DNA of 48,595 nt, taken from positions 1-48,595 of the IMG/VR virus record IMGVR_UViG_3300031463_000011. One strand, 5' to 3'. Shown piece by piece: positions 1,299 to 29,328 of this stretch (its first letter is position 1; each line of letters starts with the position of its first letter). This DNA comes from a virus. Below the pieces are notes generated by a model. That model worked only from the letters and a program-made list of their open reading frames with translations. It did not search any database and was not told the DNA's origin. Made by a program: the position numbers and the translations under genes.

Positions 1299-3605
1299 AT
1301 GCAATTTGATCAGCCTGAAGAAATTGACATGATCTGTTACCAGATGCGGTTAGCAGATTTACCACGGTCAGCTAACCGAGCGAAAATAAATGAACTGTTT
1401 AATGGTGTACCGCCTTACACACCTGAAGACGTTGAACGTAACAATATTAAAGTAAACGTAAATTGGTTACGCGGTACGACATTAGCCCATGAAGCACGAT
1501 CAACATTTACAGATGCATTTCTTAATGTACCACGGTTATTTCGTTGTATAACAGATTTCGGCCCAATTCAAAAACGTGCTGAATACAGTGAAATTGTCAC
1601 ACAAGAAATTAATAAAATTGTACGACGTAGTTTGCCCTACTTAGAAACTGTTCGGTCTAAAGTTGCTCAAGACATTTTACATGGCATAAGTCCAATTGTT
1701 TGGCGTACACCAGACGATTGGTGTCCAGAAGCAATTGGTGTTGAAGATGTCATGGTACCAGCTAATACACTCTTAACAATGGTTAACCTACCGTACTTTG
1801 CTATCTGGCGCCAATTTACTGGCCCTGAATTAATCCGAATAACGCGCCTAAAGAAAAATCCAGGTTGGAACATGGACTTAGTAAAACGTTGTTTAGAGTG
1901 GATAGATGAACAAGCAATGATGTTATTCGGATCGAATTGGACAGAAATTTGGAACCCAGAAAAGGCATCTGAACGTGTTAAATGTGACGGCGGTTTTTAT
2001 GCAGGTGACATGGTACCAACTGTTAATGTATGGGACTTTTATTTTTGGGATGATTCAGGTCGTAAATCCGGTTGGAAACGACGTATGATACTTGATTATT
2101 GGTCTACACCGGATCAACCGACTAGTTCAGTTAGTTCAGGTCAATTAACTGCAAATAACGCGTTAGATTTCGGTCGAAACCAGTTTTTGTACACGAGCGG
2201 TGACAGGCTAATTGCACGTGACAGATTAAACATAATCGCATTTCAATTTGCAGATTTAAGTGCAGTTGCACCGTTCAGGTACCATTCAGTACGTAGTTTA
2301 GGTTTTTTGTTGTATGCAGCTTTACAGATTGAAAACAGGTTACGATGTCGGTTTACAGAAGCGATCTTTGAAAATTTAATGCAGTATTTACGTGTTCGTA
2401 ACATAGACGAAGTTGAAGCAGCAATGAAAATTGAACTGCATAATTTCGGTGTTATACCGGATTCAGTTCAATTCGTTACTCAAGGTGAACGGTTTCAGTG
2501 TAATCCAACGTTAGTCGAACTCGGTTTACAAGATATTGACCGACTTGTTACACAACACATGACAAGTTGGCGTCCGCGTACTGAATACAGCGGAACAGGC
2601 GTTGAAAAGACGCGGTTACAAGTGTTAGCTGAAATGCAATCTCAAACCAGCTTGATTTCATCTGCATTAACACAAGCGTATAATTATCAACGATTTGAAT
2701 ATATCGAAATTTTCAGGCGCTTTTGTAATTCTAACTCGAATAATACAGATGTTAAACGGTTTCGTGCTGCATGTGCACAACGTGGTGTACCACTAGATTT
2801 ACTTAAACCTGAATATTGGACAATTGAACCTGAACGTGTGTTAGGTGGCGGTAATCGCACACTTGAAATGGGAATTTGGCAACAGTTAATGGCTGTTCGC
2901 CAGTTGTACGATCCTGAACCGCAACGCGAAATTTTGCGTGGATTTACCTTTGCAATGACAGCCGATCCAGATCGAGCTGAACAACTTGTACCGCGTACAC
3001 CGCACATATCAGATTCGCGTTATGAAGCCCAACTTGCCTTTGGCACATTAATGGCAGGTGGTGTGTTACCGCTTAAATCGGGTATTAACCGACGCGACAT
3101 AATTGAAGGGTTACTCACATGCGCAATGGCAGTTGTGATGCGTATAGATCAAACTGATCGGATGGGTTCAAAAGAAGAAATATTCGGGTTACTTAATGTG
3201 CTTAATCATGTACGGCAACATATAGATCAGTTACGACAAAGTAAGACTGAAAAGGCTTATGTAGCACAATACGATAATATCGTTCGTGCATTAACAAAAC
3301 AGATAGATGGATTTGCGCATCGGTTAGCAGAACATTTACGTGCACAAGGGCCAGGACCAGACGGTCAAAATGAAGCTGTTGCAAAACAGCTTGAAACAAT
3401 GAGTAAAATTCAAGCGCAACAAACTATTGCACAAGCTAAAGCGCAAATTATGCGTGAAACACATGCCCAACGTACAGCGCAACGGCATTTGCAATGGCAA
3501 CTTGAACAACAACGCGAAGAAAAAGAACATCAAGCTAAGTTACGGCACGAAGCTGAAAAGGCTGCAATTAAACTAGCCGAAAAACGGTTAAGTGCAGTTG
3601 TATGA
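1299..3605 (+). CDS. Portal protein
   Basis: The 768-residue product is a mixed alpha/beta protein with a long, charged, Gln-rich helical C-terminus (about residues 700-768) likely to form a coiled coil. Size, composition, the N-terminal NELFNGVPPYTPEDVERNNI segment and position upstream of scaffold and capsid genes fit the dodecameric portal of short-tailed phages, through which DNA is packaged and ejected. Similar portals have an N-terminal wing, a clip near mid-protein and a C-terminal barrel helix. It overlaps the next gene by 4 bp (ATGA), implying translational coupling. No Shine-Dalgarno precedes the ATG. I do not see another portal candidate. The assignment is by gestalt and synteny, not a diagnostic motif. 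Confidence 0.7.
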   Translation: MQFDQPEEIDMICYQMRLADLPRSANRAKINELFNGVPPYTPEDVERNNIKVNVNWLRGTTLAHEARSTFTDAFLNVPRLFRCITDFGPIQKRAEYSEIVTQEINKIVRRSLPYLETVRSKVAQDILHGISPIVWRTPDDWCPEAIGVEDVMVPANTLLTMVNLPYFAIWRQFTGPELIRITRLKKNPGWNMDLVKRCLEWIDEQAMMLFGSNWTEIWNPEKASERVKCDGGFYAGDMVPTVNVWDFYFWDDSGRKSGWKRRMILDYWSTPDQPTSSVSSGQLTANNALDFGRNQFLYTSGDRLIARDRLNIIAFQFADLSAVAPFRYHSVRSLGFLLYAALQIENRLRCRFTEAIFENLMQYLRVRNIDEVEAAMKIELHNFGVIPDSVQFVTQGERFQCNPTLVELGLQDIDRLVTQHMTSWRPRTEYSGTGVEKTRLQVLAEMQSQTSLISSALTQAYNYQRFEYIEIFRRFCNSNSNNTDVKRFRAACAQRGVPLDLLKPEYWTIEPERVLGGGNRTLEMGIWQQLMAVRQLYDPEPQREILRGFTFAMTADPDRAEQLVPRTPHISDSRYEAQLAFGTLMAGGVLPLKSGINRRDIIEGLLTCAMAVVMRIDQTDRMGSKEEIFGLLNVLNHVRQHIDQLRQSKTEKAYVAQYDNIVRALTKQIDGFAHRLAEHLRAQGPGPDGQNEAVAKQLETMSKIQAQQTIAQAKAQIMRETHAQRTAQRHLQWQLEQQREEKEHQAKLRHEAEKAAIKLAEKRLSAVV

Positions 3606-6142: not shown

Positions 6143-6211
6143 TCAGTACCCAGCACACACATGATAAGGCCGCATCGAGACACAACCAACCGACTAAATA
6201 AGAAACGCAAT

Positions 6212-7840
6212 ATGTCAACGGTACGAACGCCATATTCGCTACAGACAGTTGCCGCGTTAACTGTACTGCTATTACTATGCGCTGCCCCCAGTCAGGCTGC
6301 ATGGTATGCAAATGAATTTACAACAAATGCGTCTGGTATAGCACGTCAACTTACAACGAATATAGCGACAAGTGCAGTTGGGCAGTTAACAAATGTTAAA
6401 TTGACTGAATTTACAACGAATAATTGGTGGGCACAGGCAATCGTTAACACAAACATTATTGTTGCACCACTGCCTGTTGGCGCGAATAGCAGTTTGACTT
6501 GGAGTAACTTACAATGGGCACTTGATCAGTTGACTAATACAACTGCAGATGCTAGGCAGGGACGCGGTGTATTGTTTATTCCCGCAGGTACCTATTACGT
6601 AAATAACACACTCGTAATTCGTAACAATGGTGTTAAGATAGTTGGAGCTGGTCCAGAACGCACTTTAATCTTTGCTTCGGTGGATGATAAGAATGTGTTC
6701 GAGTGGCAACCGACAAATTCGTCTTATGGTGGTACGTGGGCGTATTGGCTTACCGTGGAAGACTTGAGCGTACGTAAAAATCAAAAAAATTATACGCAAA
6801 GCCAATCAGCCGCATTTAAGCTCGCGCCGTGGAATCAGAACTACTCTGGGCACGTTTGTTTTCGTAATTTGTACGTTGCAGGGTTTTATTATGGTTTTTA
6901 TGTTAGCAATGCCTGGGATTACATTTTCGAACATGTATATGCGTACGGGTGTAACCATTCATTTTGGTTAAGTAAAGTTGATGCTTGCACACTTATCTCG
7001 TGTGAGGCTGGTGATGCATATAACGTAACGTATCGGACTAACTGGTCAGGTGCACCATATTCGAGTGGCATTGAATACATTAATGGTGGATTCCAGCTTG
7101 TTTTAATTAATTGTGAAGGGCGCCGTGCAGATAACTTTTTACATGTCGGTAGTGGTACAATAGGCGTGTTTATCTCAGGTCTAAACCTTGAAGAGATGTG
7201 GACAGGGCCGCATATGCGATTTGACGGTGGTGAAAGTGTCGTGATCCAAAATGTACGTATGGCGCGCGGTTCGACAAATTATAATCCACGTTTCAAATTT
7301 ACTTACGCAGGTACAACTGCATCAATTATCGGTTTTTTCCCGACAGATAACATTAACGCTTGGCCTGAAATTGAAGTGCCAAATTCAACATTTAACCTGC
7401 ATTACTACGGTAAATATGCTGTTATTGTAACGAACGCTGCTACAGGACAAAAAACTTGGGTACCGCACTATATCTCAACAACAGCCGGTATTAGCTTTAC
7501 CAATACACCACTTTACGCTACACACATAATAAGTACGCAAGGATTTAAGTTACCGCAGCTTTCATCTATACCAACAAATGTAATAGACACTGCAGGTACA
7601 ACAACAAACTGGGTTTTGGCAAATGTAGCTGGTCAACTAAAACTTATTGCAACGAATAAAAGTGCAGCTAGTTCATATTTAATACGTAATTTACCTGCAA
7701 TAACCATTGCAAATTTGGGTGGCAATGGACCGACCTCACCAGGTGCATTTGTAGGTGACATGGTGCTAGACATTTACAATGACTATAACTATTTATGGAT
7801 TTGGGATGGTGAATTGTGGAGAGGCGTTAACAATTATTAA
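6212..7840 (+). CDS. Secreted beta-helix (pectate-lyase-like) tailspike or depolymerase
   Basis: I start at the ATG at 6212 because it opens a classical Sec signal peptide: a short n-region, a hydrophobic core (AALTVLLLLCAAP, residues 14-26) and a likely cleavage after SQA (residue 29). The in-frame ATG at 6161 would add 17 residues before it. The mature 513 residues contain the entry motif GVLFIPAGTYYVNNTLVI followed by repeated short beta strands with 'xGxxxERTLIF', matching Pectate_lyase_3/GlmA-like right-handed beta-helices of tailspikes and polysaccharide lyases. The C-terminus ends YLWIWDGELWRG, the motif shared with the two preceding proteins. A signal peptide is unusual for a virion protein, so it may be exported by the host as a depolymerase. 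TN-rich composition resembles verrucomicrobial secreted proteins. Confidence 0.65.
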   Translation: MSTVRTPYSLQTVAALTVLLLLCAAPSQAAWYANEFTTNASGIARQLTTNIATSAVGQLTNVKLTEFTTNNWWAQAIVNTNIIVAPLPVGANSSLTWSNLQWALDQLTNTTADARQGRGVLFIPAGTYYVNNTLVIRNNGVKIVGAGPERTLIFASVDDKNVFEWQPTNSSYGGTWAYWLTVEDLSVRKNQKNYTQSQSAAFKLAPWNQNYSGHVCFRNLYVAGFYYGFYVSNAWDYIFEHVYAYGCNHSFWLSKVDACTLISCEAGDAYNVTYRTNWSGAPYSSGIEYINGGFQLVLINCEGRRADNFLHVGSGTIGVFISGLNLEEMWTGPHMRFDGGESVVIQNVRMARGSTNYNPRFKFTYAGTTASIIGFFPTDNINAWPEIEVPNSTFNLHYYGKYAVIVTNAATGQKTWVPHYISTTAGISFTNTPLYATHIISTQGFKLPQLSSIPTNVIDTAGTTTNWVLANVAGQLKLIATNKSAASSYLIRNLPAITIANLGGNGPTSPGAFVGDMVLDIYNDYNYLWIWDGELWRGVNNY

Positions 7841-11087: not shown

Positions 11088-11435
11088 ATGCCAAATCGAA
11101 CTAGACCTAACATTGGGAATATTGAACCCACTGAAAGAGATTTAGATTTGTACAATGATATTGGGCCTGAAGAACGTTCAGGTGAACCTGAGGCTGAACA
11201 AGAGACAAGTTATAATACAACTGTTATCCCGCGTGAAATACTGCCTGGTGAACATACGGTAGGTGAAACTGTCACATTCAAGATTGTAGGTGTCTACGAA
11301 GACGAATACGAGATTGAACCTGTGACAGAACAACAGACATCACCTGAATCATCTAAATCACGTGAATCAACTGAATACACTGAACCGACTGAAACTGAAT
11401 CTACTGCAATGGAAGGCTTCAGTGCAATAGATTAA
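11088..11435 (+). CDS. Acidic hypothetical protein, 115 residues
   Basis: Translation from the ATG at 11088 (MPNRTRPNIGNIE) gives 115 residues rich in Glu, Thr, Pro and Ser, probably largely disordered. An in-frame ATG at 11046 lies inside the hairpin downstream of the capsid gene and is less plausible. The TTATG start context resembles other rightward genes of this phage. The C-terminal third is a repetitive Ser/Thr/Glu stretch (TEYTEPTETES). It may be a head-associated or scaffold-accessory protein; I recognise no family. Confidence 0.55.
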   Translation: MPNRTRPNIGNIEPTERDLDLYNDIGPEERSGEPEAEQETSYNTTVIPREILPGEHTVGETVTFKIVGVYEDEYEIEPVTEQQTSPESSKSRESTEYTEPTETESTAMEGFSAID

Positions 11436-11443
11436 GGCCGGTT

Positions 11444-11653
11444 ATGGAAATCAATGTTGACGGGCTAATTAACATTGGGGTCTTAATAGTTGTTGTAGGT
11501 TATTTTTTCAGGTTTGAACACCGAGTTGCCGAACTTCAATCTGAATTTGAACATCGGATGACGCGGGTTGAAACTAAACTAGATGTTTTATTGAATGGCC
11601 AGAAAGCAAATGCTGCCGAACTGAAAGATTCAATTAAAAAGTTAGCTCATTAA
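11444..11653 (+). CDS. Small membrane protein with coiled coil
   Basis: The 69-residue protein has a single hydrophobic segment (LINIGVLIVVVGYFF, about residues 8-22) followed by a charged coiled coil of about 45 residues. This N-terminal-anchor plus cytoplasmic or periplasmic coil layout resembles phage accessory lysis proteins and inner spanins, but it is too short for confident assignment. It leads a cluster of small membrane proteins (12202, 12419, 12814), with a leftward gene inserted between. Its 3' end overlaps the 3' end of the leftward TnpB-like gene by 20 bp. Confidence 0.55.
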   Translation: MEINVDGLINIGVLIVVVGYFFRFEHRVAELQSEFEHRMTRVETKLDVLLNGQKANAAELKDSIKKLAH

Positions 11654-13066: not shown

Positions 13067-14914
13067 TCAATTCAATTGATAGGTCAACTGACCGCTAGTC
13101 CAGTATTGTCTAGATTTTTCGTGCAATGTCCGCAACCATGTTTGTTCAGTAGACAATTGTTGTTGATTGCCAAGTTTCCTGATCACGAAACCGAGTTTAC
13201 GTGCACCATAAAAACCAACTGCAATTGCATCGGCAATATCAGGTGACCGACCGATTTTTTCTTTCATTTTATGTTTCGGTTCAACTTCAATCTTGTTCCC
13301 GGCAACAATTGTCCATTCGCGATTACAAAATTCTTCAATTACTTCATCGGTAAACCCACGTACTTGCCCGGCTTCAACAGCAAGTCGAACACTAAACCAT
13401 AGTTCAGTGATAAATTTTGAATAGTACTGGTCACACGGAACTTGAATTTCAGCACTGACCATGTCTTGTGACGGTTTACCGCCACAATCTACTGGGTTAA
13501 CACGATTTGACCATAAACGCGCAAATGCAGTTACTAAACTTGTACGCATACCGGCGTCAAAGAAGAAATTTTCAGGTGGAATATTACGATTTTTGCACTG
13601 TTCCATGACAAATTCCACAATTTGATCTTCAGGATCATCTGACACAGCTTTAATTGGTATAACCATGTAATCAATTAATGCTATAATCTGACCTGTATTA
13701 GGCCTATGGACAGATTGACTGATTAAACTTGAGACATTAAAGGTTGAATTATCCGAGGACGCTTCAATACCAAATTGTAACTCGCCAAAGATACATCTGT
13801 CACCACCTACTGCGCGGTACGCAGCATCTAGAAAACCAACTTTAATTCGGTTATTATCTGCCCAATGCGGTTCTTTTGTTGCACCGAATTTAATGCACAT
13901 TTGCCGCGTTAACACACGTCGTGAGCCTTGACCGCGCGGCATACGGCCTTCGTTCATCATGTGAAACCAAAGACTGTCACGACCGTAAAATTCTAAGTCG
14001 CGGTCAATAGCGTCTTTGGTAATTAATGGTGCGCCTAATTTACCATCTAGATTAGGTGAGTCTGATCCCCACAACTGAATACAAATACCGTGCGGCCGTT
14101 TAATTTCCCACGTTTTGGTTCCTGGTTTTTGGTCTATGCCACCGTCCCAACCACCTAAATGTGCAGCAGGTTCAGCTAATATACCGAGAGGATCGTTGAT
14201 ATCTTTGGGGTTACCTAACCCGACAAACTTAAAATCTGGGTTTTTGTCTAGGTTAGACAATCCATCTATAATTGCATGTGGTAAAAGGTGTAATTCATCT
14301 GCTATAAGTCGAATGCGTTTATTTTTTATACCGGCAAATTCGCCTATACCAATAAATGTTTCACCGCGTTTAGCTGCTACACCAACTAAACCGTTACGAA
14401 AATCACGTGCTTCAACGTCACTTGTTTTTGGATCAGAAACAATCCGTTGCCGACCTTCAATTAAATGACCAGGTAACCATGGACAACGCCGTTTAGCTAA
14501 TGTGAAATGATGTTTTATTTCACCCCAAATACGTTCTTCAAGTCGTTCGCGTGTAGTTGAACAGCATAGTACAGTTGTGCATTCAGGCCAACAAAACCAA
14601 TCTGCTAATACATTAGTTGCGGCTGAATGTGTTTTACCACTTGATGCTGGCCCAATCTCAATCACAGTCCGATAGTTAAGGAAACATTCCATTTCTAGCT
14701 GGTTCCATTTATGCCAAATTTTTTCTGGCCAAAGTAATTCTTGTAACCGCCGAAAATGGAAAGCTAATCCTTTGCCCACAATCCGGTTATCGTCTTTAGA
14801 CTGACGCCATTTACCGCCCCTACGAATCATTGCAATTTCAATTGCAACGGGGTTAATACCAACTGGCCATTCTAACCCGTACAATTCAATTTTGCGTTTT
14901 TTAGATTGCGCCAT
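13067..14914 (-). CDS. terL: Terminase large subunit
   Basis: I choose the ATG at 14914 (MAQSKKRK); a TTG four codons upstream is possible. The 615-residue protein has a Walker A GPASSGKT near residues 88-95 and a Walker B IADE near 204-207, forming the packaging ATPase. The C-terminal part keeps nuclease-like features: a GFLDAAY segment near 365, an FFFDAGMR segment and SPDIADAIAVG close to the end, matching RNase H-like terminase nucleases. It works with the portal to drive DNA into the procapsid. It is leftward and converges with the lysis genes, while its neighbours on both sides are rightward. Divergent to 14973 across 58 bp. Confidence 0.9.
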   Translation of the reverse strand: MAQSKKRKIELYGLEWPVGINPVAIEIAMIRRGGKWRQSKDDNRIVGKGLAFHFRRLQELLWPEKIWHKWNQLEMECFLNYRTVIEIGPASSGKTHSAATNVLADWFCWPECTTVLCCSTTRERLEERIWGEIKHHFTLAKRRCPWLPGHLIEGRQRIVSDPKTSDVEARDFRNGLVGVAAKRGETFIGIGEFAGIKNKRIRLIADELHLLPHAIIDGLSNLDKNPDFKFVGLGNPKDINDPLGILAEPAAHLGGWDGGIDQKPGTKTWEIKRPHGICIQLWGSDSPNLDGKLGAPLITKDAIDRDLEFYGRDSLWFHMMNEGRMPRGQGSRRVLTRQMCIKFGATKEPHWADNNRIKVGFLDAAYRAVGGDRCIFGELQFGIEASSDNSTFNVSSLISQSVHRPNTGQIIALIDYMVIPIKAVSDDPEDQIVEFVMEQCKNRNIPPENFFFDAGMRTSLVTAFARLWSNRVNPVDCGGKPSQDMVSAEIQVPCDQYYSKFITELWFSVRLAVEAGQVRGFTDEVIEEFCNREWTIVAGNKIEVEPKHKMKEKIGRSPDIADAIAVGFYGARKLGFVIRKLGNQQQLSTEQTWLRTLHEKSRQYWTSGQLTYQLN

Positions 14915-14972
14915 CGAAACTTGCAAAACTGTTCAGACAAAAATACATTTACTAAAGGCTAATGACAATAAT

Positions 14973-22122: not shown

Positions 22123-25100
22123 ATGCCTGTTTACGAGGTAGGCCTACGCGATGGTCGTGTCTATACAGTACGAGCAGACCGGCCATTGACAGAAGATGAA
22201 TTGCTTGCTGCAATTGAACGGTACCAATCTGGCCCGGTTGAACCTGAACCAGGTCAAAAAGAAACTGGACCGGCTGGGCCAATTTTACCTATTCGCACTG
22301 ATACAGACCAAATTGCGCCAACTGTACCCTACGCTGAACAGTTAAGTGAACTTCGACCTGCTGTTGCGGCTGCATTTGGTACCAATTATGCAGGTCGTCA
22401 ACCAGGCGGTGGATTAAGTGACATCGCAGCCGGATATGAAGCTTTAACAGGAACTGAACGTCGTGCTGCAACTGAACTTGCGCGCGGCTTATTACTTTCA
22501 GCTCTTGGCCCGGTTACACCTTCAGGTGTAGTTGTACCACCGCGTCCTGAGACTGAACAATTTCGTGAATGGGTGCTGAGCCGTAAACCTGAAGAGATTG
22601 AACAATTAACTGAAATTTTCCCGCGACCTGAACAATACCCGACTTATGAAGAGTTTCGTACTGCGCATCCTGAGCTGACAATTAGTAAGACTGGGATTGA
22701 ATGGGCTGTACCGATATCAGTTGCGAAGGTTATTTCAAGTGTAGGTAATTATTTCACTAGTCCACAAGGTATAGTTGAATTATTCGGTGTAGCTGTACCT
22801 GGGGTTAATTTTGCCGTGTTAGGCAAATGGATAACTGACATGGCAAAAGCGGGTTATTTAAGTATTGGAGATTTACAAGATGCAGTTGAAAAAAGGGATT
22901 GGCAACGTGTTTCAGACGACATAATAGGTGGGCTAGCGTCACTTTGGGGTATTCGCGCAGTTAAAGGTGATATAGCTAGACGCGCTGCGCGTGAGGCACC
23001 TAAAACACAACAAGAACTTGTTAAACAAGCCGAAGAAAGGAGTGTACAGGAATATGCCACTGAAAAGAGGTACGAGCCGACAGACATTCGAGCAGAATCT
23101 GAGAGAACTGTTACGGGCAGGGTACCCGATGAGACAGGCCCTCGCGATTTGTTACAACCAACAGAGACGCGCGCGGCCGTCGAAGGCGCGCCGGAGCAGG
23201 CGGCGCCGACAGGACCAATAACTGCGCCGGCGCCTGAGACAGTTCAGGCTGAACTAGAACGTAAAGCGCAAGCTTTAGCTGAACGCGGTCCGGTCAGTGC
23301 TACTGCGCACGAAACTGCAGTTAACATTGACCGGACACAAGATGTCAGTGCTGCAAGCCAATGGCTACGTGCTGTACGCGACTTATCACCTCAGTTATAC
23401 AATACACTTGAACAAATTGCGCGTGGTAAAGGTGTAAGTGCTGAAGCAGCAGAATTATTATCACATGAAGTCGGTGACGATCCTGCCTTATACAATTTAT
23501 ATGAGAAATACGGTTGGAGCAAAGATTTTTGGGCTGACGTCTTTGAACAGGAATCGCATTTACCTCCAGTTTCAGCCGAACCCTTACCTGAAGACATTGC
23601 ATTTGCAACTAAACCAAGTGAACCACCTAAACCTGGCACAGTAGAAATTCGACCTGCCATACGCGCATTTATCGAAACGTCACCAGGCAATAAACGTGCA
23701 GTATATTTTATTGGTGGCGCAACGCATTCTGAGATCATCCTTAAAAATGCAAAAGCTGCGGCTGAACTAGGTGTATTATCCGATCTATGCGCTGAAGAGA
23801 ATCGTGGATTTTTAATCAATGGCCAATGGCACACGCGCGCATCTGTAAAAGAACGGTTTGGTGTTGCAACGTCTGAAGAACTAATTGAACGTGGTTACAT
23901 TGAACCTGAAAACGCTAGGGCTGCTCAACCGTTAGCAACTGAAAAAGATAAACTTGATTTACGGCAACAGACTATACCTGAAGGTGCAGTTGTAACTGAT
24001 GCAGGGTTAATTGCGCGTATTAACAAGTTAATTTCTAAGTTTAGCGCAATTAAATTACCTGAAGCACAAAAAGATGTAGATGCATTATATGACGCATTAG
24101 GCCGACGTCAGGAAGATAATTTAGTGTTTTTAGAGGCGTTATTACCGCGTGGTGAACTTGTTCGTAGCCGGGAAGATACATTATCGGCCTATAATGTAAT
24201 GCGACAGATGAACGAGCGCGGGTTTTTCGGCGATTTACCATGGTTACAACGCCTCGTTGATTCAATGCTTAAGTTAGGTGATCCCGGTACAACAATTTCA
24301 ACTGGTTACTATAGACGGTTAAATTGGCCGAAGAATGTCATTGCATTTTTCTCTAATAGAGCGAACCACATTGCAATTAACCCTGACATATTCGCTGCAC
24401 GTAACCGTGAATGGAGCGCATTACAAATAACATTAGCACATGAATATTTACATGCATTAACACGCAGTGCACGTGTTTGGGGTGCAAATCCAAAATTACG
24501 AGTTGAACTACGCAACATTTTTGAAACGCTCTGGAACGATCCTGATATAGGTACTGTCTTACGATCAATCAATTGCGATAACGAATTTGAGCTTATTTCA
24601 TACGGTTTAACTGATCCGCGCTTACGCGAGATACTTAATCAAAAGACAATTAAACCGCCAACAGCTAAACGTGGTGTTATTCGGACTGCCTTAGAAGAAA
24701 TCTTAAATTTAATAGGCCGTTTACTTGGGTTAAAGGATGTAACCGTCTTAGATAGACTGTATCGGATAACTGAATATTACGGCCGTAAAACAATTGCAAT
24801 TAACGAAACTTCAGTCCGGCGGTTACTAGGTGCAATTGAGAATATTGATCCGACTGATCTACCGCCGCGTGAACAATTGTACGTGGTAGATTTCATGCGG
24901 CGCGCTAAACAGCCTAAAGAAGACGAAAATCAATTGTTATTAGATTTAGCTGATAAAGGTCAAATATCGTTCGGCACGAAACTTGAACCTACAGGCGAAA
25001 AACCTGTTGAACAGATTAACCTTACTGAAGCTAAACCTATTGAACCGCCAGCAGCTACACAGTTAGAACGGGATATTTACAATGAAATTAAAAAGACGGC

Positions 25101-28100
25101 TGAAAGTTCGCATGAACTGCCTACACTTAAGACGATCAATTTTTTAATCGAGACGAAGTATAAAGATATCGAAATTAATCGGTCACAGTTATTTGATGCT
25201 TATGCAAGTGCAGTTTGGAAATATTTAATGGATGCACCGGGTGAAACACTTAAGGCAATTGGCGAAAAATACAATTTATTAGGCTTATTACGGTTAGGCC
25301 GGGCGATTATACCTGATGCACCTGGCCGGTTATCTGAACAGATAGCCAAACTAACTCAAAATCCGGTTATACAACAGTTGTTAGGCCCGATGTTTGAAGA
25401 CCCGGCGCAATTTAGCAAAATCCGAAATAAACGGATTCGACAAATGTTAATTGATTTGTTCGGGCCGATGTCATCTGGGCAACGTCGTAGATTAAGTTTA
25501 ATTCGTCAGATTGGGCTAAAAGTTTTACAGGAAGCTGAACCTGAAATACGTGTACGGACAAGTGGCGCATTATCACCTGAACAAGTTGGTCAACCGATAC
25601 GCAGTAATGTACCTGCCTTTTTCGACATTCGCCCGCAAGATTTACAGACTGTAATTGACACTGGTCAACTTGTTGCAGATGCGCGTGTATCTGGTAAAGC
25701 GCCTAATGTAACACGACGATTAACTGCATTAGTTGATACACGTAGTGAAAAAGCGCCAGTAATTGTAGTTAGTACATGGTACAATGCAGGTGCAGATGCA
25801 ATTTATGTAGCTGAACCTGGATTAACAAGGCCAGGTACACTTAATGTACCTCTTGAATCTGTCATGCAACGCGGTTACAAACCGATTGCATCAATTTTAC
25901 TTGAAGAACCTGTTCGTAATTACCGCTACAAGTTCAATTCATTAACTGATTTTGAACAATCATTTGCAGTTGATGCGCGTGACCGTGCACGGCGTCAACA
26001 GTATTCACCTGAAGTATCAATTTACGGGGCTGAACGGCGTGAAGAATTACCACGTCGGGTTAAGGTTGAACGATTAGAAAGTGCATTAGCACTTGAACAT
26101 ACACCGGGCATACTTGAACGGATGTTAACTGAGCCTATTACGGCTATAACAGACCGTGAAGCACAAGCGATTTGGGACTTTTACAAAGAAACAGCCGGTG
26201 AACGGTTAGACGATTATTCGCGCGTGTTAGCTGCAATGAGCGAGATGGGCCGCACACGCGCATTAAACATAACTGTATTATCCGGGTTCCGTAAGCTTTT
26301 TAAGGAATACGAACGAGCGTATCCATACGCATCCATACAAGAACTCGCCGAACGCGTTTTTCATGATTTATACGATTTACATGTACGCAACGTTAAACCT
26401 GACCAAATCTATGAAGAAATTAAACGAAGGGGTCCTAAAGAGGTTAGTGAAACTGCTCGGGTTAGACCCGAACAGACCGTTATATCCCCATACGAAGAAC
26501 TGGCGAGCCAAGAAACAATTGAAGGGCCAGCCGAAATAAGTCGGCCTAAAGCATTTGAACCTGAACCTGAGCTTGGGCCAATTTCACCTGATGAAGGGAT
26601 AGACCCGAGCTATGAAGGTATAGATTTCATGCAATTACCTGTTCAGGTTCCACCTGCAATTGAAGAACGTGTTAACCGCGCTAATGAAGCAATTACATTT
26701 CGTATTGCTCGGGTTAAACAGCGTATAAACAATTTAGGTGCCGTAATAAAACGTTGGCCGACTATGCAGAATTTACGGCGGTACGCTGATGGTTTGTACA
26801 ATGAAATTGGTGCAGTTGCAAATCAATCTGCAAATGCAATCAGGATATTTGCTGGTGCAGATAAAAATAAACAGAAACGACTTGAAGCTGTTAAAGCTGT
26901 AATTGCTTGTGGTCAAAAGGTAACAGACGAACGTGGTAATCCAACAGTTAAATTCGACAAAAACCGGCTAGATCAACTTAAGTTTTATTGTCAGCAGGCG
27001 ATGACTCAAGCTAAAAAGTTAATTGATAAAGCTGACAAGTCACCAGCCGAAGCTGTCATAGGCCGTGCATGGTACGATAGTGCAGCGCGGTTATTAGACG
27101 AAGTTGAATGGGCTGAAAAGAACTGGGACGATCCAATCTTACAGAATCTAGCCTATAAAGTTTTACAGGAATCACAACGGATTTACGACGTTGAAACCGT
27201 ATTCGGTGCGCAATATTCGCGCCACGTAAATTATTTACCTTTACGATATGAATCTTGGCCGTGGGACGCCAAGTTAATGGCTAATGCAGAACGGTTAATT
27301 GGTGTACGATTTAAGGCGCCTAAAGCATTTGCTAATCCGTATGAAGCAATTAAAGTCGGCCCATACATTTTACGGTCGTACGATGTAGCGGATTTATTCC
27401 AACATAGGTGTAAAGCTGGTATTCGACCCGTAGCAGAACGTGCTTGGGTAAACTTACTTAAAAATGTCAATGATCCGGTGACAATGATGCCAATTGCTAA
27501 GGAACCGGTTATACGGCAAATTGGCAAAACTGAAGCTAAAATGTGGGTTTCACCGGATGAAAAACAGTATTCATTAGTTTACATTCATCCTAACAGTCGT
27601 CCGATAGCAGTTCTTGTCCCGTACGCACGCGCTTTACAGACAATTTTAGCGCGTTCAGTTGTGCCGCGGTTACCTGTTGCAGGTGAAACGTTACGGTTAG
27701 CTAGCATGATTAAACATGGTATCCTGCTGATGTGGGATACATATCATCCATTTCGGATGACATATCTAGCTCTTGCAACACCTGAATTATGGGCAAAAAC
27801 AAAAATGATTAAAGCGCATGAAGCTGGCTGGGCAGCATTAAACATTCGACCTAACCTATTAGATAATGCAGTTAAAAACGGTGTAATATCACAAAAGGCA
27901 GCGGATTGGTGTCGGCAACAACGTGTGTTACGAACGGCTGAAGGTGAACAGCCGATGACAAACCAACGTATTTTACTCGAATTAAATCGGCGCGGGTTAA
28001 ACATAGTTTATTGGCAAGATGCACTTTATCGGCATGTTATTCGTGAGATACCTATCTTAGGTAAAGTACTCGAAGGCACAGTTGGGCGGTACAATGATTG

Positions 28101-29328
28101 GATGTTTAGTCGCTACATTGCAGGTTTATTCGGTACACTTGCAGTTGAATCGTTAGTTAAGTACAGCGCAAAACATCCTAATTTACCGTTTGAAAAGTTA
28201 ATGCGCGATGTTATTACCGATTACAATGCAATCGTAGGTAACATGGGTCGGCAAGGTATTTTCCGTAACCCGAACATACGCGATATTGCATCTATCTTTT
28301 TACTTGCACCGATGTGGCGTGAAGGGTTGTGGCAGAAAGATTTACGTACATTAGGTCGGTTATTAGGCGCAGGCCAAGTTACACGTCGGCTGGGTATGCG
28401 TGCTATTCCAGGGTTAGGGCCGTTAGGTACAACTGTTATACGCGGGTTAGCTGGATGGTTCGTGTTAAGTCAAATTATTAATGCAATCACACGCGGCCAA
28501 AGCACATTTCAAAATCCGGAACCGGGCAAAAAACTTTCAGCTTGGATACCAACTGATGATGAAGGCCACGGTGTATGGTTTGAACCATGGTCAATTTTCG
28601 GTGAAGCACTGGGCCAATTTTTACATTTACTTGAGACGCAACCCAGTGTGTACGCTGCTATACGTAAAACAGGTATAAATACATTGGGGCCATTCGGTCG
28701 GATGGCTTATGTGTTAGGTACGGGCGAAACTGAACGAGGCGAAGTTATTACTTCAACAGGCCGAGTTGCAACTGAAGCACTATCAAATTTAGCGCCGTTA
28801 CCGATTTCTTTAGGTGCACCTGTTAAAGCGTTAGCGCATGAAGTTGCACCTACTAAAGTACAAAAATTACAACCAGGGTTACTAGCCCAACGTATGTTAG
28901 GTACAGTAGGTGTCAAGGTATCACTCGACGAAGGCCCTGAACGTCGTATTCAGACTTTAGCAGATGAATTTGTCCGTGAACATAATTTGAAAAAAGAGAC
29001 AGGCTGGCAACTTGAGCCGACAATTGAACCTAGCTACGCAAAGTTACGTAGTGCATTACGATCGGATGATATTGAAACTGCACGAAAAATTTATAAACAG
29101 TTACGTGCACAACGGCCTATACGATATCTTAAAGACGGATCAATCCATGACCCGATGATATCTGAGATGGAACAGTGGGCGCGTCGGCCTTGGACAGGAT
29201 CAATTGATAATGAACACATGTTTATAATGAGTCTGTCACCTGAATTACTTAAGCAATATAACGAAGCTAACCTAGCGCGCTATCATGTATTTAATAAGTT
29301 TTTGGAACTTGTAGCTGAACAAGATTAG
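22123..29328 (+). CDS. Giant polyvalent internal virion protein with metallopeptidase motif
   Basis: This 2,401-residue protein begins MPVYEVGLRDGRVYTVRA, typical of large injected virion proteins. A linker around residues 300-370 is Pro/Glu-rich and is dual-coded. Residues 773-777 are HEYLH, an HExxH zinc-peptidase signature, followed by NEFELISYGLTDPR (820-833), matching the downstream Glu region of polyvalent-protein zincins. Near 1,900-2,260 there are conserved-looking segments (WDTYHPFRMTYLALATPELW; FRNPNIRDIASIFLLAPMWREG) of the LPD38-like type seen in large polyvalent proteins. It probably forms part of the ejection core, enters the host and may modify or cleave proteins there. Domain boundaries are approximate. 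Confidence 0.65.
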   Translation: MPVYEVGLRDGRVYTVRADRPLTEDELLAAIERYQSGPVEPEPGQKETGPAGPILPIRTDTDQIAPTVPYAEQLSELRPAVAAAFGTNYAGRQPGGGLSDIAAGYEALTGTERRAATELARGLLLSALGPVTPSGVVVPPRPETEQFREWVLSRKPEEIEQLTEIFPRPEQYPTYEEFRTAHPELTISKTGIEWAVPISVAKVISSVGNYFTSPQGIVELFGVAVPGVNFAVLGKWITDMAKAGYLSIGDLQDAVEKRDWQRVSDDIIGGLASLWGIRAVKGDIARRAAREAPKTQQELVKQAEERSVQEYATEKRYEPTDIRAESERTVTGRVPDETGPRDLLQPTETRAAVEGAPEQAAPTGPITAPAPETVQAELERKAQALAERGPVSATAHETAVNIDRTQDVSAASQWLRAVRDLSPQLYNTLEQIARGKGVSAEAAELLSHEVGDDPALYNLYEKYGWSKDFWADVFEQESHLPPVSAEPLPEDIAFATKPSEPPKPGTVEIRPAIRAFIETSPGNKRAVYFIGGATHSEIILKNAKAAAELGVLSDLCAEENRGFLINGQWHTRASVKERFGVATSEELIERGYIEPENARAAQPLATEKDKLDLRQQTIPEGAVVTDAGLIARINKLISKFSAIKLPEAQKDVDALYDALGRRQEDNLVFLEALLPRGELVRSREDTLSAYNVMRQMNERGFFGDLPWLQRLVDSMLKLGDPGTTISTGYYRRLNWPKNVIAFFSNRANHIAINPDIFAARNREWSALQITLAHEYLHALTRSARVWGANPKLRVELRNIFETLWNDPDIGTVLRSINCDNEFELISYGLTDPRLREILNQKTIKPPTAKRGVIRTALEEILNLIGRLLGLKDVTVLDRLYRITEYYGRKTIAINETSVRRLLGAIENIDPTDLPPREQLYVVDFMRRAKQPKEDENQLLLDLADKGQISFGTKLEPTGEKPVEQINLTEAKPIEPPAATQLERDIYNEIKKTAESSHELPTLKTINFLIETKYKDIEINRSQLFDAYASAVWKYLMDAPGETLKAIGEKYNLLGLLRLGRAIIPDAPGRLSEQIAKLTQNPVIQQLLGPMFEDPAQFSKIRNKRIRQMLIDLFGPMSSGQRRRLSLIRQIGLKVLQEAEPEIRVRTSGALSPEQVGQPIRSNVPAFFDIRPQDLQTVIDTGQLVADARVSGKAPNVTRRLTALVDTRSEKAPVIVVSTWYNAGADAIYVAEPGLTRPGTLNVPLESVMQRGYKPIASILLEEPVRNYRYKFNSLTDFEQSFAVDARDRARRQQYSPEVSIYGAERREELPRRVKVERLESALALEHTPGILERMLTEPITAITDREAQAIWDFYKETAGERLDDYSRVLAAMSEMGRTRALNITVLSGFRKLFKEYERAYPYASIQELAERVFHDLYDLHVRNVKPDQIYEEIKRRGPKEVSETARVRPEQTVISPYEELASQETIEGPAEISRPKAFEPEPELGPISPDEGIDPSYEGIDFMQLPVQVPPAIEERVNRANEAITFRIARVKQRINNLGAVIKRWPTMQNLRRYADGLYNEIGAVANQSANAIRIFAGADKNKQKRLEAVKAVIACGQKVTDERGNPTVKFDKNRLDQLKFYCQQAMTQAKKLIDKADKSPAEAVIGRAWYDSAARLLDEVEWAEKNWDDPILQNLAYKVLQESQRIYDVETVFGAQYSRHVNYLPLRYESWPWDAKLMANAERLIGVRFKAPKAFANPYEAIKVGPYILRSYDVADLFQHRCKAGIRPVAERAWVNLLKNVNDPVTMMPIAKEPVIRQIGKTEAKMWVSPDEKQYSLVYIHPNSRPIAVLVPYARALQTILARSVVPRLPVAGETLRLASMIKHGILLMWDTYHPFRMTYLALATPELWAKTKMIKAHEAGWAALNIRPNLLDNAVKNGVISQKAADWCRQQRVLRTAEGEQPMTNQRILLELNRRGLNIVYWQDALYRHVIREIPILGKVLEGTVGRYNDWMFSRYIAGLFGTLAVESLVKYSAKHPNLPFEKLMRDVITDYNAIVGNMGRQGIFRNPNIRDIASIFLLAPMWREGLWQKDLRTLGRLLGAGQVTRRLGMRAIPGLGPLGTTVIRGLAGWFVLSQIINAITRGQSTFQNPEPGKKLSAWIPTDDEGHGVWFEPWSIFGEALGQFLHLLETQPSVYAAIRKTGINTLGPFGRMAYVLGTGETERGEVITSTGRVATEALSNLAPLPISLGAPVKALAHEVAPTKVQKLQPGLLAQRMLGTVGVKVSLDEGPERRIQTLADEFVREHNLKKETGWQLEPTIEPSYAKLRSALRSDDIETARKIYKQLRAQRPIRYLKDGSIHDPMISEMEQWARRPWTGSIDNEHMFIMSLSPELLKQYNEANLARYHVFNKFLELVAEQD
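23054..23221 (+). CDS. Nested small basic protein in an alternative frame of the giant gene
   Basis: A 55-codon gene lies wholly inside the giant virion gene in another frame. It starts at ATG 23054, preceded by AAAGGAG about 11 bases upstream, a good Shine-Dalgarno although most rightward genes here have none. The product reads MPLKRGTSRQTFEQNLREL, then LRAGYPMRQALAICYNQQRR and a very basic tail. It matches the common small phage protein style 'MPLKxGxSxxTxxxNIxELxxxGxPxxQAxAIA'. The host frame here encodes a Pro/Glu linker that tolerates overprinting, and the local DNA is unusually GC-rich. An upstream in-frame ATG at 22991 adds an unrelated-looking stretch. Likely real; function unknown. 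Confidence 0.7.
   Translation: MPLKRGTSRQTFEQNLRELLRAGYPMRQALAICYNQQRRARPSKARRSRRRRQDQ

Follow-up and report, generated by a model that had tools for sequence, protein, structure and literature searches.

A small open reading frame of the phrog_2423 family nested in a giant phage gene, and its recurrence in other giants

Tailed phages are described as having few embedded genes beyond examples like those for the spanins (PMC8785237), and such genes often escape gene callers (PMC6139136). The closest described arrangement is that of the two-component spanins of phage lambda, where Rz1 is a complete gene nested in Rz in the +1 frame, on the same strand and with its own start; Rz1-type genes are also found non-nested in other phages (PMC6139136). 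A second point of comparison is formed by the giant polyvalent proteins, in whose review (PMC5512222) the terms "overlap" and "alternative reading frame" appear nowhere. The third is a virion protein of Pseudomonas phage SCUT-S1, ORF22 (S1_022), which belongs to the protein family phrog_2423 (function unknown). Seven peptides of ORF22, covering 77% of the protein, were detected in purified virions by mass spectrometry (PMC6521218, Table 1); this detection concerns the stand-alone homologue ORF22 only. A report of phrog_2423 genes nested in giant genes was not found in the open-licence literature searched.

The window, i.e. the whole stretch of DNA that was analysed, comprises 48,595 nucleotides (positions 1 to 48,595 of IMG/VR virus record IMGVR_UViG_3300031463_000011). 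Most of the phage proteins scanned had no match in PHROGs. A weak match to the terminase large subunit (phrog_2, E 3.9e-5) is located at 13067–14926 on the minus strand, opposite to the neighbouring genes, and a pectate-lyase-like protein, perhaps a tailspike, is encoded at 6161–7840 on the plus strand (Pfam E 6.8e-5, below cut-off).

A giant ORF of 2,401 codons runs from 22123 to 29328 on the plus strand. It probably encodes a large multidomain phage protein of the polyvalent type, and it has no significant relatives: searches for the giant and the terminase in IMG/VR, and for the giant in GenBank phages, returned none. A domain scan gave SprT-like (E 0.078) and MXAN_6640 (E 0.04) similarities, both below the curated cut-offs, and no PLxRFG match. 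A metallopeptidase-like HEYLH (HExxH) sequence, present as a motif only, is encoded at 24439–24453 on the plus strand (giant residue 773). The initial annotation had called the host a virion gene; gene order and the HEYLH motif suggest that this is so, but no significant database match came to its aid.

Upstream of this motif, a second ORF is enclosed entirely by the giant ORF, on the same strand and in the +1 frame. It occupies 23054–23221 on the plus strand (ATG at 23054, TAA at 23219–23221), counts 55 codons and encodes MPLKRGTSRQTFEQNLRELLRAGYPMRQALAICYNQQRRARPSKARRSRRRRQDQ, a product with a predicted pI of 12. A Shine-Dalgarno sequence, AAAGGAG, is located at 23036–23042 (plus strand), 11 nt before the ATG. 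The anti-SD pairing at this start (-9.1 kcal/mol), calculated from the sequence only, ranks first among the 121 ATGs of the giant ORF, giving the small gene a predicted ribosome-binding site of its own. The G + C content across the small gene is 0.61 versus 0.42 for the whole window. In the frame of the giant, the same DNA (23053–23220, plus strand) encodes residues 311–366, an acidic Pro/Glu/Ala-rich linker with a computed pI of 4.6. Where the two genes overlap, codon signal weakens in the giant frame and strengthens in the small one. The frame and its AAAGGAG, its position in a second frame of the 2,401-residue gene, the GC-rich DNA and the Pro/Glu-rich linker were all as the initial annotation had described them.

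The length of the small ORF was rejected as evidence for a gene, since the other forward frames of the giant contain four ATG-initiated ORFs of this length or longer and synonymous-codon shuffles give similar numbers (mostly 0–3). Its similarity to phrog_2423 has an E value of 4.1e-15, with residues 1–49 aligned to positions 1–49 of the 52 positions of the profile; for the other three long alternative-frame ORFs the best family match was only E 0.098. The residues that are invariant in a 60-member alignment of the family (M1, P2, N15, G23, A29 and A31) are all kept, and the window genome contains no other copy. As judged from these matches, the homology of the nested ORF to phrog_2423 is, unlike its length, far beyond chance. 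On the sequence evidence, the ORF at 23054–23221 is real and a member of this family.

The initial annotation had likened the small protein to a widespread, conserved phage protein and had proposed a database search with the 55 residues. Homologues were indeed found: tblastn with the window protein gave matches in 391 phage records, and with the copy from locus L072 in 532. In annotated phages the family gene usually stands by itself as a small gene within the head module or close to it, as in cyanophage KBS-S-2A, Burkholderia phage Bm1, Pbunavirus, phiEap-2, a P22-like phage and MED4-184. In Acinetobacter phage Brutus the family member forms the N-terminus of the prohead protease, and one L201-type copy weakly matches the N-terminus of a head maturation protease family. 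In SP6-like phages there is an overlap of a few codons between the family gene and the tailspike gene. In K1E (NC_007637, from 44635 onward) the end of the tailspike gene is overlapped by a family member that lacks an annotation, while its counterpart in vB_EcoP_ACG-C91 has one. The family also forms the N-terminus of proteins of 171–193 codons in MW202675 (L286, 5001–5582) and MW202545 (L138, 8001–8516); in MW202675 an annotated internal virion protein is encoded two genes further downstream.

The AlphaFold model of the nested protein (mean pLDDT 87) contains two confident helices (residues 9–22 and 26–40) and a less certain basic tail; a search against solved structures and folds gave no significant match. 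Of 60 family members, 16 weakly resemble Pfam DUF6496 (best E 1.4e-6), probably through a QAVAIAL-type motif, and the window protein itself did not match the DUF6496 model.

We scanned 277 loci with the family profile; they came from pattern-based searches and are a sample, not a census. Wherever a family member was fully nested in a giant ORF, it lay in the +1 frame and never in the +2 frame. Such nesting was seen in six groups: the window; the PLxRFG giants (NF032893) of L043 and L044; L072, in a giant of more than 3,300 codons; L114, in a giant of 1,707 codons, with its relative L132 on a truncated contig; the giants of a clade consisting of L201, L202, L154, L164, L156, L195 and L216; and L244, from a bacterial metagenome bin. 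The giants of L201 and L164 are homologous to each other and were counted as one group. Nesting therefore occurs in at least five giant-gene groups besides the window, and the claim of a conserved small gene gains from this recurrence. The giants of the other groups measure 1,700 to 3,300+ codons, and the position of the nested gene varies among giants from residue 310 to residue 1138. A good Shine-Dalgarno sequence precedes the copies of the window, L043/L044, L114/L132 and the L201-type loci, and not those of L072, L164, L156 and L244.

Between groups the giants lack overall homology and share only local domains. Profile comparison across the groups gave no match for the window, L072, L114 or L244 at a probability of at least 60%, and found local domains common to the PLxRFG and L201/L164 groups only; BLASTP added short local matches of L072 with the L201 clade and of L244 with L154. 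None of the PLxRFG and related giants examined from isolated or named phages (F116, Y7, Y11, Vibrio 252E42.2 and MW202426) has a nested copy, and no cultured example of the nesting came to light among them. L030 was rejected as a nested case, its long frame being a chance upstream extension, and L017, L018, L036 and L039, with shorter open frames in GC-rich DNA, were left uncounted. Contig IMGVR_UViG_3300044984_001713 (L289, L318) carries two different giant copies near its two ends, each with a nested gene. In the L201, L202, L154 and L164 giants, similarity often breaks directly downstream of the nested gene, as it would at a module boundary or recombination point.

Selection in the two frames could be compared across related phages, as the initial annotation had proposed. 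With the L201 giant as query, 32 loci were retrieved, and the nested frame is kept in all 30 that cover the site; L316 stops short of the site, and L304, one of the 30, is cut by a contig end, leaving 29 full copies for analysis. None of the 29 has an internal stop in the small frame. The distant L319 (38% identical) shows homology on both sides of the site and has no nested copy. Over codons 2–42 of the 29 loci, the small frame had an omega-like value of 0.27 inside the overlap (p 5.6e-7), against 2.32 in the giant frame; in the upstream flank the order was reversed, with 0.46 in the giant frame (p 5.8e-9) and 1.49 in the false small frame. These values compare distinct changes with all possible changes from the consensus and are not tree-based rates, and the p values are approximate. 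In all five pairs compared (L043/L044, L114/L132, L154/L201, L164/L156 and L202/L195), substitutions inside the nested gene shift from the third codon position of the giant to its first, which is the third position of the small gene. The pooled Fisher p over the five pairs was 3.6e-9, the last three pairs coming from one clade and therefore not being fully independent; taken alone, L114/L132 (p 0.08) and L043/L044 (p 0.03) are weak. Purifying selection acts on the small frame in relatives, and in the L201 clade the overlapped giant segment is unconstrained, the opposite of the giant-only selection that the initial annotation had named as a ground for refutation; it is in relatives only that selection specific to the nested frame was observed.

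Since the window phage itself has no close relatives, its small ORF might be a once-working gene that is now passive and open only through selection on the giant frame. L042, which is 88% identical to L043 in the best segment, shows that such relics form: its ATG is absent, and about 28 giant codons have been deleted in frame within the nested gene. At 11339–11450 the remnant can be seen, with its first codons still recognisable (TLLRPATSRAS versus MPLKRGTSKAT), and the 19 kb contig fragment contains no other copy. L042 most likely lost the nested gene, because the more distant L044 has it. We consider a similar fate unlikely for the window, where the start codon, the strongest Shine-Dalgarno sequence of the giant ORF, the residues invariant in the family and all 55 codons of the frame are preserved, and where the nested copy is the sole copy. 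Moreover, selection on the giant frame would not keep the small protein, and the two frames are decoupled in the L201 clade.

Alternatively, the long frame could be open across the small gene by chance, the true downstream gene beginning after it, so that the giant would in fact be two proteins. The breaks in similarity just downstream of the nested gene in the L201 clade fit this proposal, as does the lack of amino-acid constraint on the overlapped giant segment there. It is nevertheless improbable: the small gene is crossed by an open long frame in 29 of 29 full L201-clade loci versus 38 of 236 stand-alone copies, L043 and L044 align across the site at 69% identity, the deletion in L042 is in frame, and in the window the giant frame gives a positive codon signal both before and after the nested gene.

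The stand-alone copies also bear on the age of the two readings. A +1 frame is open through 38 of the 236 (16%) and a +2 frame through 20, which indicates that a small gene landing in a linker would sometimes be tolerated, with the +1 frame favoured. Because stand-alone members of the family are widespread and some of them have such chance-open frames, the small gene is probably the older reading and the giant linker a younger reading through it. De novo origin of the small protein from the linker of the giant, the textbook case that the arrangement resembles, is scarcely credible, as it is contradicted by the homology to a family with 236 distinct stand-alone copies, and the same protein could not have arisen separately in several giants that lack overall mutual homology. 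The initial annotation had spoken of overprinting; a conserved gene is nested as it supposed, but events probably ran opposite to classical overprinting, with giants coming to enclose an old head-region gene that had stood alone.

Taken as a whole, the observations are very probably explained by a genuine phrog_2423 gene that is nested in the +1 frame of the giant linker, with a predicted internal start. The giant mRNA would be translated twice, in the long frame from the start of the giant and in the small frame from the internal Shine-Dalgarno sequence; copies without a good one (L072, L164, L156 and L244) are perhaps weakly translated or use another route. The predicted product is a highly basic protein of two helices and an Arg/Lys tail. 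It may have its role in the virion or during head assembly, where it might bind DNA or an acidic partner. The nested product is most likely made by internal initiation and, to judge from SCUT-S1 ORF22, most likely a small basic virion or assembly protein. As to its origin, an existing small gene was probably inserted or captured in a linker whose long frame stayed open by chance.

All nested copies seen to date lie in giants; this could reflect a functional link or simply the long, tolerant linkers that giants have on offer. It is conceivable, although we regard it as rather doubtful, that the small protein and the giant are a functional pair, repeatedly and independently fused as a nested unit, which would make them a second embedded class beside Rz/Rz1. 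The giant would then be carried in the virion and injected, and the nested gene would supply a small basic partner for packaging or processing.

A recognisable family nested in several giants without overall homology, together with evidence of selection, means that a simple scan can find cases for testing. The nesting also exemplifies a long gene that reads its linker through a small gene of probably greater age, the unconstrained reading being that of the giant, and the role of a family without a function, present in hundreds of phages, becomes directly testable.

Compared with the described systems, the window protein is directly homologous to phrog_2423 over residues 1–49, but the members inspected in annotated phages are encoded as genes of their own or as the N-terminal portions of longer proteins, none of them nested in a giant. 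The Pbunavirus proteins SCUT-S1 ORF22, the one detected in virions (PMC6521218), and KPP22M2 ORF084 belong to the same family, but are encoded by a stand-alone gene of 68 codons between minor head and structural genes. Like the polyvalent proteins and PLxRFG giants, the hosts of the nested genes are giant, several have an HExxH motif and one group is PLxRFG (NF032893), whereas the giant of the window has no confirmed domain. Finally, while Rz1 shares the nested +1 layout, it is a lysis lipoprotein within a small lysis gene; the phrog_2423 product is an unrelated small basic protein encoded within a giant multidomain gene.
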